Source: Paenibacillus sp. Soil750 (GTDB taxonomy: Bacteria > Bacillota > Bacilli > Paenibacillales > NBRC-103111). Taken from it: a stretch of DNA of 64,000 nt. Location of the stretch: NCBI RefSeq assembly GCF_001428045.1, contig NZ_LMSD01000041.1, forward strand, positions 127,847-191,846, written 5' to 3'. This document shows positions 8,978 to 20,017 of this stretch, in pieces (positions within the stretch are counted from its first letter, which is position 1; the number at the start of each line of letters is the position of its first letter). The notes under the pieces are model-generated. The model made no database searches. It was not told where the DNA came from and saw only the letters and a program-made list of their open reading frames with translations. A program made the position numbers and the translations under genes.

Positions 8978-9133
8978 GTCTAAATTGAGAGACAATTGAA
9001 AAAGCATGGCCTACTAAATGGAGTGTCACGATGGGGCAGGTAAGATATTTGGGAGAATGATAACATAAGTCCAAGCGAATATATTAACCAATTCATACAC
9101 TGTTACTATCTTGTGATTAAGAGGGTGATAGGG

Positions 9134-9508
9134 ATGGGATTTATATTTAATCGGAATGTTAGAGTTACTTTTTTCTCGGGTTTTAACTTTACTGGAAGAA
9201 ATTTAACATTTAGAAGAGGCGTGGCAGTTTCAAATCTGGGATTATTCGGTTTTAACAATATCATCTCCAGTTTCCGGCTAAGAAATGTTGTATTTCCTAG
9301 TCAAGTTACGTTAGTACTGTTTTCAGGGCGTAATTTTACAGGAAATTTTCGAATTTTCCGTGGTAGCCAGAACATTGCTGACTTACGAGCGTTCAACTTT
9401 AACAATGTAACCTCGTCGTTTATTCTGGTTGGATTCCGGATAAGTACTACACAGATACGTACCATTCAACGCACAGGCACAATGCCAAGCGACATTTCTG
9501 GATTATAG
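9134..9508 (+). CDS. Two-repeat beta/gamma-crystallin-like protein
   Basis: 124 residues with two consecutive Greek-key motifs. Repeat 1 has FSGFNFTG (residues 14-21) and NNIISS (41-46); repeat 2 has FSGRNFTG (63-70) and NNVTSS (90-95). These match the F/Y-x4-F/Y-x-G signature and the N/D-N/D-x-x-S/T-S calcium-site signature of microbial beta/gamma-crystallins, both intact, so one domain with two Ca2+ sites is expected. There is no signal peptide or membrane segment, so it is cytosolic or spore-associated. ATG 9134 is preferred over GTG 9113 because AGAGGGTGAT sits just before it. It is a single gene; role unknown. Confidence 0.72.
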   Translation: MGFIFNRNVRVTFFSGFNFTGRNLTFRRGVAVSNLGLFGFNNIISSFRLRNVVFPSQVTLVLFSGRNFTGNFRIFRGSQNIADLRAFNFNNVTSSFILVGFRISTTQIRTIQRTGTMPSDISGL

Positions 9509-11427: not shown

Positions 11428-12081
11428 TTATGTCGGCAAACAGCTAATGAGGCAAACCGCCTGTGCACTCAAACATATCGGTGTGCATAAGACAGCGAAG
11501 ATGCCGCATGCAGCCTTACAAGAATTTGCAATACGATAACATCTTGCATTGCATTCGGGATCAGCGGTCGCACCTTTGCCTCTCCGCGGAGCTAGCTTTT
11601 TTAATACTCGCTCAAGTTTAGTAAATAGTCGTTTAAGGGTAAGTTGGAGCGATTTATCGATACTGATCTTTAATGTTGTGCCGTCTTTGAATCTTATTTT
11701 TTGGGTACGCGTGGAAGAGCAACCGCCACATTGGCAACCGCTTTCAAGTCTAACGGGAACGATTGCTTTCTTATTAATGAATCCTCTAGCAGTGATATTG
11801 TTGTTCTTATCTTGGAGAATAATGTTGGCACTGGAGACACCGTTCACTTGTTTACCAAAGGAAGCAGTGAGTCTGCTGCTTGTACGATTCAGAGATTGTA
11901 TTTTGAATGTTACTAAGTTACATGCATTCTGCGTGATATTTAGGAAGATGTCGGAGACACCTCGACTGGCGTTTAAAACCAATTCGATGTTCGCGCTTAA
12001 GATGCCGTCTTGCTTGGATTTTATGCTAGCTGTTGCAAAAAGGGTGGTTGTTCCGTTGACTGTCCGTAGCAGTCCGGGCAT
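11428..12081 (-). CDS. Unrecognised protein with periodic-cysteine C-terminal domain
   Basis: 217 residues, no signal peptide. Residues about 1-120 look all-beta (alternating polar/hydrophobic, many S/T/N). A CQCGGC cluster follows, then a basic stretch (LKRLFTKLERVLKKLAPRRGKG). The last 40 residues carry eight cysteines spaced exactly 4,7,4,7,4,7,4, an 11-residue period, in a small-residue-rich hydrophobic segment. I do not recognise the family; the tail loosely recalls cysteine-rich bacteriocin-like domains. ATG 12081 is chosen over ATG 12120 because GAGGGAGTGAT lies just before it. It is divergent from the ParB-like gene at 12295. Confidence 0.7.
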   Translation of the reverse strand: MPGLLRTVNGTTTLFATASIKSKQDGILSANIELVLNASRGVSDIFLNITQNACNLVTFKIQSLNRTSSRLTASFGKQVNGVSSANIILQDKNNNITARGFINKKAIVPVRLESGCQCGGCSSTRTQKIRFKDGTTLKISIDKSLQLTLKRLFTKLERVLKKLAPRRGKGATADPECNARCYRIANSCKAACGIFAVLCTPICLSAQAVCLISCLPT

Positions 12082-12294
12082 AGCTATCACTCCCTCAATT
12101 CGATTGGTCTGTTCTCTCACAATATATGTGGAACCAAAAGACTCGGTGTGGGTGAATAGCTAGAAAGCCAAGCCACTTACAGCAATAGGATCAGACTTCC
12201 CAATGAAAGCAAGAACCTCCAATACGCTAACATACATACACTGTAATAAGTTGGAATACATTACATTAATCAGCGGTGTTGAGGAGGGGTAGCG

Positions 12295-14018: not shown

Positions 14019-14996
14019 TTGGGTGATCGATCACAAAAAAGTGTAAAAATTATGACATGGAACATCTATTTTGGATCTACCTTAACGCCTGTAGTAGGAA
14101 CCACTCCTGAGGAAGTACCACTACGTGTTACTGAGATCTATAGACAGTTTCAAGCAACAAATTTTCCGGTACGGGCGAGGGCTATTGCTGATCAAATTGC
14201 TGAAAAAGAACCAGAACTAATTGGTCTTCAAGAAGTAGCAAAATGGCAACTTCTGTTACCTCAAAATTCTAAAGTAGTTGTAACCTTTGATTTTGTTTCC
14301 ATCCTTCTTAAAGAGTTAGAAAAAAGAGGATTGCATTATCAGGTTTTAGCAGAAACTAGAAATACTGATGTTACGCTACCTAGTAGTCATGGCTTCAACG
14401 TTCGATTTTTAGATCGAGATGTGATTCTGGCGCGAAAAAACTCAGGACTTAAGTTCTCAAACATACAAACAAAAAATTTTGAAGCTTCTCTTATCGTACC
14501 AGTTGGTGGTAATCTTGTAAAAACCCTGTTTGGTTGGTCTTCTGTTGATGTCGAAATAGTAGGAAAGAAATTTAGACTAGTAAATACTCATTTACAACCC
14601 GTTTCACCTTTAATCCCCGAAACACTTCAAGTACAACTCGCTCAAGCTGATGAACTTTTAAATGGCCCGGGAGCTACTCAACTTCCCTTAGTATTCATAG
14701 GGGATTTCAACTCAAATAGTAACGGCAGTGGTCTATCTTACAACAAATTGATTGATGCTGGATTTAAAGACTCATGGAAGATCGCAGGAAAAGGCGATGG
14801 ATTAACATGTTGCCAGGATGCTGATGTATTAAATTTGATCTCGCAATTATTTATTAGAATAGATTTAATTCTCTTTCGAGGCGATTTCAAGGTTAAAAAA
14901 ATAGACGTTGTAGGAGAAGAGCAAGAAGATCGTACACGTACGGCACTATGGCCTTCTGACCATGCAGGAGTTGTGGCTACGCTTACTTTACATTAA
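14019..14996 (+). CDS. Endonuclease/exonuclease/phosphatase (EEP) family protein, copy 1
   Basis: 325 residues covering a full EEP fold. Visible motifs are MTWNIYFG near residue 13, the metal-binding Glu in LIGLQEVAKW (about 68-77), DRDVILAR, the catalytic Asp-x-Asn in FIGDFNSNSN (about 231-240) and the terminal SDHAG (about 316-320). The start is TTG 14019, backed by AGGAGGT at 14004-14010. There is no export signal. EEP proteins cut phosphodiester bonds in DNA, RNA, lipids or inositol phosphates; the substrate cannot be told. It is clearly paralogous to the gene at 19028 over its whole length, including the segment TEIYRQFQATNFPVRARAIA. Confidence 0.85.
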   Translation: MGDRSQKSVKIMTWNIYFGSTLTPVVGTTPEEVPLRVTEIYRQFQATNFPVRARAIADQIAEKEPELIGLQEVAKWQLLLPQNSKVVVTFDFVSILLKELEKRGLHYQVLAETRNTDVTLPSSHGFNVRFLDRDVILARKNSGLKFSNIQTKNFEASLIVPVGGNLVKTLFGWSSVDVEIVGKKFRLVNTHLQPVSPLIPETLQVQLAQADELLNGPGATQLPLVFIGDFNSNSNGSGLSYNKLIDAGFKDSWKIAGKGDGLTCCQDADVLNLISQLFIRIDLILFRGDFKVKKIDVVGEEQEDRTRTALWPSDHAGVVATLTLH

Positions 14997-16886: not shown

Positions 16887-17963
16887 ATGAAAAGAATAAT
16901 TGAAGGTTCAATGCAAAGGGCGATTCTAGTTGTAGTTTGTATGCTGCTTATTCTTGCGTGGGGAGGTGTCTCTGCCTTTCAAATGCAGCGTGATTATCTA
17001 CCAGGCATTAATAATACAACTCTGCTTGTTTCAGTAAGGGCATCATCTTACCAAGCAGATCAAGTTAAACTAAATGTAACACCAAAATTAGAAGATGCTA
17101 TTAGGTCTTCTGATGGCTTGATGGATGTAGAAACGAATTCCTATGATGGCGGACTTTTAATGAATCTGTACTACCCGATGGATTTTGATATGAAACAAGC
17201 TGAGAGTGACATTAAACAAGCTGTATCAAGCGCAGTGCTTCCAACTGACGTTGGGGCTCCGGTTATCACTCGTGTAACGACTAGTACATTTCCAATTTTG
17301 AGCTATAGCTTAACTTCAAACAGTACAAACATTGACGAAACTACACTTCGTTCTTCGATTGAGGCTGATATAGCTAAACAACTGAAATCCGTTCAAGGCG
17401 TCGCTGATGTCCGTGTCACTGGAGCAGCAAACAATGGTTATGTTTTAAATGTTAGGATGCAGGATCTAACAAAGAATGGTTTAACAATGGATGATTTGAA
17501 TCAATCATTAGCCGCCGCGCTGCCGAATTGGTCCACTGGAAAAGTGTCTAACAATAAAGACTCGTTTCCATTAACAGTGAATGGTTGGAACTTAACAGAC
17601 CAAGAGTTAAACAATATTCCGATAAAAAATAAGCAAGGCACCAACGTCCAGTTGTCTACTGTGGCTGATCTATCCCACTCTCTGACTGACATTAAAACCG
17701 TATCCCGAACTAACGGAAAAGCAAGCATCCTTTTAGATGTTCTAAAATCACCGTCATCGAATATTACGGATGTAGCAAAACTAGTCAAAGAGCGCGTCGC
17801 GCAAATAGCGTCAATTAAAAATAATGATGTTTCGTTAACCGTGATGCTAAGTCTGACGATCCCTATTTTACTGAAGTACGGGCAGCATTCGTTAACGCTG
17901 AGCAAGGCTGGATTGAAATCAAGAAACATAGTGGAATCCAAAAATGGAAAAATCGAGGAATAA
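16887..17963 (+). pseudogene. Truncated RND efflux transporter (N-terminal third)
   Basis: The first ~320 residues are a good RND (AcrB/SwrC-like) N-terminus: a membrane helix, QMQRDYLPGINNTTLLVSVR, the porter-domain segment VQGVADVRVTGAANNGYVLN, and VNGWNLTDQELNNIPIKNKQ. Intact members run to about 1000 residues with 12 membrane segments, but here the similarity ends near VSLTVML (about 17850) and an unrelated 38-residue tail ends at 17963. From 17831 another frame reads like a different protein's tail (DPYFTEVRAAFVNAEQGWIE), so two genes appear joined by a deletion. The product cannot be a working pump. Confidence 0.8.
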
Positions 17964-18801: not shown

Positions 18802-19027
18802 TTGTTCGGCGGCACAAACACAATAGTTGTTTACTGCAACTAAATGCGTAACAGCGAACACCAGTTGAGGGGCTTGCCTCGCGGCAATTCCTTTTTTTCT
18901 TCATTCACGTGTTAAGCCTCAAATAACATAAAATCTATCAAAGTAGTAGTCAAACTGCCGTTTCCATTCTCAATTAATTTTCATTTATTATTAATAGATT
19001 TATATATTGATTGGAGGAAAATGGAAA

Positions 19028-20017
19028 ATGAATTCTGATTGTAATCTTAAGGTCTCGTTCCTAACGTGGAATATTTATCAAGGTTTTGATGTTGCACCAT
19101 TGTTTGCTGCGTCCCCACAGCAAATCCCTGAAGTTGTAACACAAGTCTTTAGGCAATTTCTTGCGACGAATTTTCCTGTTCGTGCCAAGGCAATTGCTAA
19201 AGCTATCGCTTCGGAAAAACCTGGTCTTATCGGTTTGCAAGAAGCGGTGCGGGTGAAACTAGTTATTCCAACTTTCGGAACCGTCACCTACGACTTTATA
19301 GATATATTATTAAACGCGTTAGAGGAACGAGGTTTGAAATACGAAGTTGCGGCTCGTAATAATGATGCACAGGCGGAACTTCCAGACAGCAATGGAAATT
19401 TAGTTCAATTTTTGGAAAGGGATGCAATCCTGATTCGTAAAGACCATAAATTGGACGTGAAAAGAAGGCAGGAAGCCAATTTCCAAACAAATCTAACTGT
19501 ATCCTTAGCAGGACAACCTTTTACAATACTCCGAGGATGGTCTTCTATAGATGTTAAGATTGATGGACAAGTTTTCAGGATGATTAATACACGTTTGGAT
19601 CCAACTGTTGAAGCCATACGGAATGCTCAAGCATTTGAAATTATTCAAGGACCTGCAAACACGAGTTTACCGGTGGTTATTACGGGAGATTTGAATGCCA
19701 TTCCTAATAGCTCTACTTATAATCTGTTTATGAATGCTGGCTTTAAAGATACATGGAATAAAGTGGGTGAAGGACCAGGGTTTACCCATGAACAGAGTCC
19801 TGATCTATTAAATGCAGTTTCTTTGTTGACTGAAAGAGTCGACTATATTCTATTTAAAAACGGCTGGGAACCAATTGAAGCAGAATTAGTTGGAGAATCG
19901 CAGAATGACCGAACAAAAACAGGGCTTTGGCCATCCGATCACGCAGGAGTATCTGCAAGTTTACATTTAGAGGATCATCATGACGATGATGAGAGCAGTG
20001 ACGAAAGCAGCAGTTAA
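19028..20017 (+). CDS. Endonuclease/exonuclease/phosphatase (EEP) family protein, copy 2
   Basis: 329 residues, paralogous to the gene at 14019. Same motif order: FLTWNIYQG near the start, Glu in LIGLQEAVRV, ERDAILIR, ITGDLNAIPNSS for the Asp-x-Asn pair and PSDHAGVSA near the end. It adds a Ser/Asp/Glu tail (DDDESSDESSS) absent from copy 1. No signal peptide, so probably cytosolic. ATG 19028 is preferred over TTG 19007 since TTGGAGG (19010-19016) is correctly spaced for it. Substrate unknown. It is a single gene followed by a strong terminator. Confidence 0.85.
   Translation: MNSDCNLKVSFLTWNIYQGFDVAPLFAASPQQIPEVVTQVFRQFLATNFPVRAKAIAKAIASEKPGLIGLQEAVRVKLVIPTFGTVTYDFIDILLNALEERGLKYEVAARNNDAQAELPDSNGNLVQFLERDAILIRKDHKLDVKRRQEANFQTNLTVSLAGQPFTILRGWSSIDVKIDGQVFRMINTRLDPTVEAIRNAQAFEIIQGPANTSLPVVITGDLNAIPNSSTYNLFMNAGFKDTWNKVGEGPGFTHEQSPDLLNAVSLLTERVDYILFKNGWEPIEAELVGESQNDRTKTGLWPSDHAGVSASLHLEDHHDDDESSDESSS

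Follow-up and report, generated by a model that had tools for sequence, protein, structure and literature searches.

Eight cysteines in near mirror symmetry at the C terminus of a Paenibacillales protein family, tentatively read as a disulphide-stapled helical hairpin

What kind of structure ends a bacterial protein in eight cysteines set at strictly alternating intervals, and what might it do? The question is raised by a 217-residue protein encoded within a 64,000-nucleotide stretch of the Paenibacillus sp. Soil750 genome (the window), whose C-terminal tail, CNARCYRIANSCKAACGIFAVLCTPICLSAQAVCLISCLPT, has cysteines at residues 177, 181, 188, 192, 199, 203, 210 and 214, at intervals of 4, 7, 4, 7, 4, 7 and 4. 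A sequence-only reading had pointed to these eight closing cysteines and to a CQCGGC cluster upstream of them, and our recount bears both out, with Cys 116, 118 and 121 forming the cluster and the tail holding 8 of the protein's 12 cysteines. The spacing is far from chance: when the last 60 residues were shuffled 2,000,000 times it never appeared, and any strictly alternating pair of intervals accounts for 729 of the 95,548,245 possible placements of eight cysteines in 41 positions (7.6e-6). Our preferred explanation, at a probability of roughly 0.45 and so a little short of an even bet, is that the tail folds as a helical hairpin stapled by disulphides and belongs to a spore-surface protein made in the mother cell.

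The open reading frame behind the tail (Table 1) is a genuine gene and evolves under purifying selection. When it is compared with six relatives, the third codon position is the most changed, with 12, 3 and 35 changes at positions 1, 2 and 3 against L002 and 65, 40 and 126 against L009, and dN/dS is low, at about 0.13–0.21 by NG86 (five relatives; for L009 dS was undefined) and about 0.19–0.30 by YN00 (the four relatives other than L007 and L009). Because third-position changes dominate and dN/dS is low, we read the frame as coding. A 204-residue frame antisense to it, at 11549-12163, we regard as its shadow. The encoded protein is basic, with 31 lysines and arginines against 10 aspartates and glutamates.

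Table 1. Positions in the window of the gene, its upstream elements and the regions of its product
Feature	Position	Strand	Basis
Whole gene, 217 aa plus stop, ATG start	11428..12081	-	ORF, translation, coding signature
Proposed helical hairpin: eight-cysteine tail, residues 177-214	11440..11553	-	Sequence; symmetry and variation in relatives; AF2 instead gives one helix
Predicted basic helix before the tail, residues 143-161	11599..11655	-	Local pLDDT about 58-75 in full-length AF2 model; alignment conservation
Upstream cysteine cluster CQCGGC, residues 116-121	11719..11736	-	Sequence; relatives' clusters differ in form
Residues 1-112, N-terminal part; low-confidence prediction of beta strands	11746..12081	-	AF2 pLDDT mostly <60; alignment
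Likely ribosome-binding site GAGGGAG	12090..12096	-	Read from sequence
SigmaK-like -10, CATATATTG	12120..12128	-	Conserved block; score 9 of 10 against the sigmaK consensus
SigmaK-like -35, CACC, 16 bases from the -10	12145..12148	-	Conserved block; scored against the sigmaK consensus

None of the libraries that we scanned (Pfam, NCBIfam, PHROGs and PDB) contains the family. Neither the whole protein nor tails nor other members had a significant Pfam or NCBIfam match, four proteins had none in PHROGs, and a profile search of the PDB with the tail returned nothing up to E 10, so that the profile searches with the C-terminal region proposed by the sequence-only reading ended without a known family. 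A PDB fold search with the full-length AlphaFold2 (AF2) model, itself poor (mean pLDDT 49.9), gave no match at E <=0.001 and was given no weight. Several weak similarities were taken as chance, namely a MAP domain (Pfam, E 0.074), SYLF lipoprotein (NCBIfam, E 0.045), Eap in the PDB (E 0.56) and, with one tail, an Fz domain (E 0.9); the candidate relative L023 (E 0.004) was dropped for the same reason, being antisense to a 492-residue frame.

All relatives that were found belong to Paenibacillales. A first genome set yielded 11 loci, all labelled Paenibacillus, and profiles then matched 14 of 104 genomes of the host's own taxonomic family, 20 of 392 across the order and 12 of 394 in a second family; the three sets overlap and together hold 27 genomes with the gene. 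Farther afield, a tail profile run against 398 genomes of the phylum and a full-length profile including distant members (A6) run against 398 genomes of the class each recovered the host genome only. A similar relative among these sampled outside genomes would probably have been detected, since an earlier profile (A2) had matched even the remotest members with E values no higher than 2.7e-22. Plasmids and phages yielded no relative, and among viral contigs 25 stretches matched a pattern, none of them a relative.

Within this range the gene looks like one that is dispensable and turning over. Eight of the 27 genomes hold a degraded copy only: G018 (L012/L019, tail only), G009 (L022), G024 (L021), G062 (L037), G680 (L049, internal deletion), G780 (L044, early stop), G798 (L059 and L062) and G876 (L060). 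In L012 (4940-5144, the same as L019) the N-terminal part is nearly gone and a perfect eight-cysteine tail is kept together with part of the upstream element. Duplication is also seen: G027 carries two intact paralogs (L017 and L025) with an N-terminal fragment beside one of them, and G840 carries three tandem copies. In L035 the frame is open and the usual ATG position is not a start.

For the comparison of tails, 22 distinct intact copies were recounted from DNA. All eight cysteines stand at the exact 4/7 spacing in 15 of them (the window protein, L002, L003, L005-L011, L017, L020, L025, L045 and L047), and L004 has the same layout with its third cysteine replaced by phenylalanine. The intervals become 4,7,4,8,4,7,4 in L034 and 4,7,4,6,4,7,5 in L035 and L057, so that across these relatives the middle interval ranges from 6 to 8, the first half is constant at 4-7-4 and the second half is 4-7-4, or 4-7-5 in two. 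The tails of L058, L061 and L063 are 51 residues long and more hydrophobic, with intervals of 4,4,13,11,10,4,4. These three are tandem distant copies on one contig of G840 (in the order L063, L061, L058; C106:38029-40282), and their hydrophobic tail might insert in a membrane. The sequence-only reading had asked whether the spacing is retained in homologues that have otherwise diverged, and the answer is divided: L020 and L025 keep it exactly at 28–30% identity, whereas the L058 group, 29–30% identical to the window protein in the full-length alignment, does not. The 11-residue period that it described thus holds for the window protein and its 4/7 relatives but does not define the family; the lasting features are eight cysteines laid out almost mirror-symmetrically and a proline close to the middle.

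We measured this symmetry in 10 tails by comparing the nested position sums C1+C8, C2+C7, C3+C6 and C4+C5. The sums are equal (spread 0) in four 4/7 tails and in L034, differ by 1 in L035 and L057, and by 3 in L058, L061 and L063; when cysteines are placed at random between fixed ends, the probability of such symmetry is about 0.0004, 0.005 and 0.02, respectively. The 4/7 tails are related and their symmetry counts as a single event, and that of the L058 group is only about a 1-in-50 event, shared by three tandem copies of a single genome. In all 22 intact copies a proline lies between 2 residues before and 5.5 residues after the tail centre; it is the tail's sole proline site in the 19 copies with 4-7-type halves, and the three L058-type tails have further prolines.

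The geometry of the relatives points in the same direction. Plotted on a single helix, the cysteines of the window protein give a vector of 0.87, in keeping with the earlier suggestion that they line one helical stripe, but the value falls to 0.67 in L035, 0.54 in L058 and 0.32 in L034. The one-residue change at the centre of L034 rotates its second half by 100 degrees relative to the first on a single helix, and each half taken separately still gives 0.93. The symmetry, the central proline and the loss of the stripe in L034 with its halves intact lead us to a helix-turn-helix reading.

Structure prediction of the tail, also suggested at the outset, returned a helical tail but drew it as one helix rather than as a hairpin. 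From 12 close sequences, AF2 gave one continuous helix over residues 6-44 of 48 at a mean pLDDT of 87; this alignment is shallow, its rows all have the 4/7 layout and one turn length, and the variant tails lie outside it. The full-length model has helices at 143-161 and 175-213 only, at low confidence. Taken at face value, the tail prediction suggests one long helix whose cysteine stripe makes intermolecular disulphides, or a right-handed coiled coil, serving as a cross-linker of a spore or cell-surface layer. The high single-helix vector of the window protein agrees with this, as does the tolerance of L004 for the loss of one cysteine, whose supposed partner in a hairpin, C6, is kept; the prediction and L004 are likewise the points that tell against a hairpin. 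We regard the one-helix arrangement as a live but less likely rival, because the stripe is broken by the middle interval in L034, L035 and L057 and by the layout of the L058 group, and because a proline sits near the centre in every intact copy.

In the stapled hairpin that we prefer, the C-terminal domain would be short and made of two helices that each present four cysteines along a single face, at relative positions 0, 4, 11 and 15, and are joined by a short turn containing glycine and proline, so that C177 would face C214, C181 would face C210, C188 would face C203 and C192 would face C199. In its finished state the domain would most likely hold four nested disulphides. The hairpin half of the earlier suggestion is favoured by the mirror symmetry, the middle interval of 6, 7 or 8, the central proline and the near symmetry of the L058 group, set against the single AF2 helix; its disulphides we infer. 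From sequence, disulphides and bound metal are indistinguishable.

The kind of fold is known, and four staples would be an unusual design. Twin CX9C (CHCH) proteins are defined by CX9C pairs, and the window tail has no interval of 10. Plant alpha-hairpinins have a 4C motif, CX3CX4-20CX3C, and a 6C motif, CX3CX3CX4-20CX3CX3C (PMC11591084). Like them, the tail has mirror-symmetric CX3C pairs, and its inner quartet, C188-X3-C192-X6-C199-X3-C203, fits the 4C form; the 6C form is not found in it. The tail differs in its eight cysteines, which form four CX3C pairs spaced six residues apart, and in being the C-terminal domain of a larger bacterial protein, with no kinship in sequence shown. An alpha-hairpinin is a helix-loop-helix with two disulphides; for the tail, AF2 draws a single helix, and the varying spacing and the proline speak for a hairpin. 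A signal peptide is a filter in the pipeline of that paper (PMC11591084), and the window protein has no hydrophobic N-terminal segment. For the eight-cysteine spacing formula, the 20 matches listed of 75 in an open-access library concern plant LBD proteins (18), an aphid peptide (one) and connexin/pannexin (one). Four staples in such register in a bacterial protein did not appear among these entries or among those listed for helical hairpins and spore coats.

Where the protein would be made and placed can be approached through its upstream region and N terminus. Two short upstream blocks stand at a fixed offset in 14 of 18 regions (missing in L020, L025, L034 and L035), by a pattern that was written after the alignment was seen and with several of the 14 regions coming from close relatives. 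The sigmaK consensus is mACm, 15-17 bases, CATAnnnTA. Against this consensus, nine representatives total 76, compared with a mean of 65.7 and a maximum of 71 in 300 shuffles, and L034, L035 and L057 are perfect matches. A score of at least 9 of 10 was reached by 11 of 21 members, several of them close relatives, versus 3 of 56 control upstreams (of ORFs in the window, some probably not genes) and 75 of 1,800 shuffles; the score of L007-L011, L058 and L061 is 7, which is also the most frequent value among the controls. The sigmaK-like sites in part of the family lend moderate support to a possible late mother-cell expression. In the published description, the sigmaK -35 element has 5 bases and the -10 element 10, separated by 14-16 (PMC517825).

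A hydrophobicity scan of five members (the window protein, L020, L025, L034 and L058) found no hydrophobic N-terminal stretch, the best 15-mer means being 0.72–0.97 (0.81 within the first 40 residues of the window protein), and the family appears to have no evident signal peptide. Since no export signal is evident, synthesis would be cytoplasmic, most likely under a sigmaK-type promoter in the mother cell during sporulation. The protein would then be built into the spore surface as a highly stable component cross-linked through its cysteines, with the N-terminal region and basic middle perhaps serving for binding or assembly. The family appears to resemble CotY, ExsY, CsxA and the cysteine-rich exosporium proteins of C. 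difficile in being cysteine-rich, in the spore-forming kinds of host and in possible mother-cell expression; the window protein differs from such coat and exosporium proteins in lacking a significant Pfam or NCBIfam match and is likened to them by description only. A search of the open-access literature found no paper on a Paenibacillus spore coat proteome.

The gene stands alone in most loci, with no conserved operon: across 11 loci, neighbours on both sides are common to the window and L003 only, and neighbours on one side are shared with L002, L005 and L008. Elsewhere in the window, on the plus strand, 9113-9508 encodes 131 residues with some likeness to a beta/gamma crystallin (PF00030 at E 0.006, PF03995 at E 0.004, neither reaching the cut-off), and 14019-14996 and 19007-20017 encode endonuclease/exonuclease/phosphatase family proteins (PF03372) with 45% mutual identity, about 4 kb apart. 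An AcrB-type transporter gene at 16887-17963 (+) looks broken, with only the N-terminal third remaining (PF00873 positions 2-323 of 1021).

The cysteines of a cytoplasmic protein are reduced at first, a state that suits metal binding just as well, and a metal stripe had been among the first suggestions for this tail. The tail could be a thiolate domain for Cu(I) or another soft metal, in which CX3C-lined helices bundle in the manner of Csp1 and Csp3 with a separate origin, perhaps holding mother-cell copper. Csp3 is described as cytosolic, with cysteines pointing into a four-helix bundle whose core holds 13-19 cysteines in Csp proteins, and with CXXXC motifs that bind Cu(I) without disulphides (PMC5171941). 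BsCsp3 and the spore laccase CotA, which Csp3 supplies, are reported as sigmaK-regulated (PMC9484137). As in those accounts of Csp1 and Csp3, the tail has CX3C stripes on predicted helices, and all 22 intact copies have a further 2-7 cysteines ahead of it. DUF326 proteins at four Paenibacillales loci have helix intervals of 4,3,4,3 and 7,4, of which 4,7,4 is a thinned form.

Other observations speak against this rival, which we hold to be live but less likely than the stapled hairpin. The window protein has 12 cysteines, at most two or three predicted helical segments in place of a four-helix bundle, a long non-helical N-terminal part and a tail spaced 4,7,4 as against 4,3,4,3 in DUF326. No copper gene was seen next door on inspection of the window neighbours by eye, and a stripe on a single helix, which the AF2 prediction would allow, is lost in L034. 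PF03860 (DUF326) matched neither the window protein to E 10, nor 12 members to E 1, nor four tails and two members to E 10, in searches where the HMMER filters drop most weak matches.

The DUF326 model matches 70 of 119 genomes across the order; the host genome has no match, and within the host's taxonomic family it matches none of 14 genomes with the eight-cysteine gene versus 26 of 90 without (p 0.013, or p 0.042 when only the 10 genomes with intact copies are counted and the four with degraded copies only are excluded, kinship being ignored in both). For the genus alone the contrast is 0 of 11 versus 5 of 19 (p 0.08, kinship again ignored), and 3 of the 27 genomes with the gene match DUF326, two of them above the cut-off. 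We treat this contrast as a lead only. A bolder and quite improbable extension is that a minimal thiolate hairpin, evolved independently, forms the tail and associates with a second copy into a Csp-like four-helix Cu(I) store used in sporulation, replacing Csp3 in Paenibacillales that lack it.

The suggestion of a bacteriocin-like domain, by contrast, finds little in the family. A bacteriocin or toxin-like peptide released from a precursor might be expected from the hydrophobic cysteine-rich C terminus, strongest in the L058 group (best 19-mer mean 2.78), and from the degraded copy L012/L019, which retains the tail alone. It is very improbable given the conserved N-terminal part of about 170 residues seen in the alignment, the absence of a hydrophobic N terminus in the five members scanned, the lack of a shared neighbourhood in most loci and the absence of any bacteriocin model among the Pfam and NCBIfam matches. 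Halocin C8 is a lead for a comparison of this type, and the 10 listed of 258 literature matches made no mention of it.

Should the stapled hairpin that we prefer be correct, the cystine-stapled hairpin design would grow from two or three staples to four, and would do so in a bacterial family. Its natural variants would then probe that design, with a turn that varies in length while the cysteines stay in register. As part of a spore-surface protein, the domain would be a compact cross-linking module; if it instead binds copper, it would represent a second answer to Cu(I) storage in sporulation.
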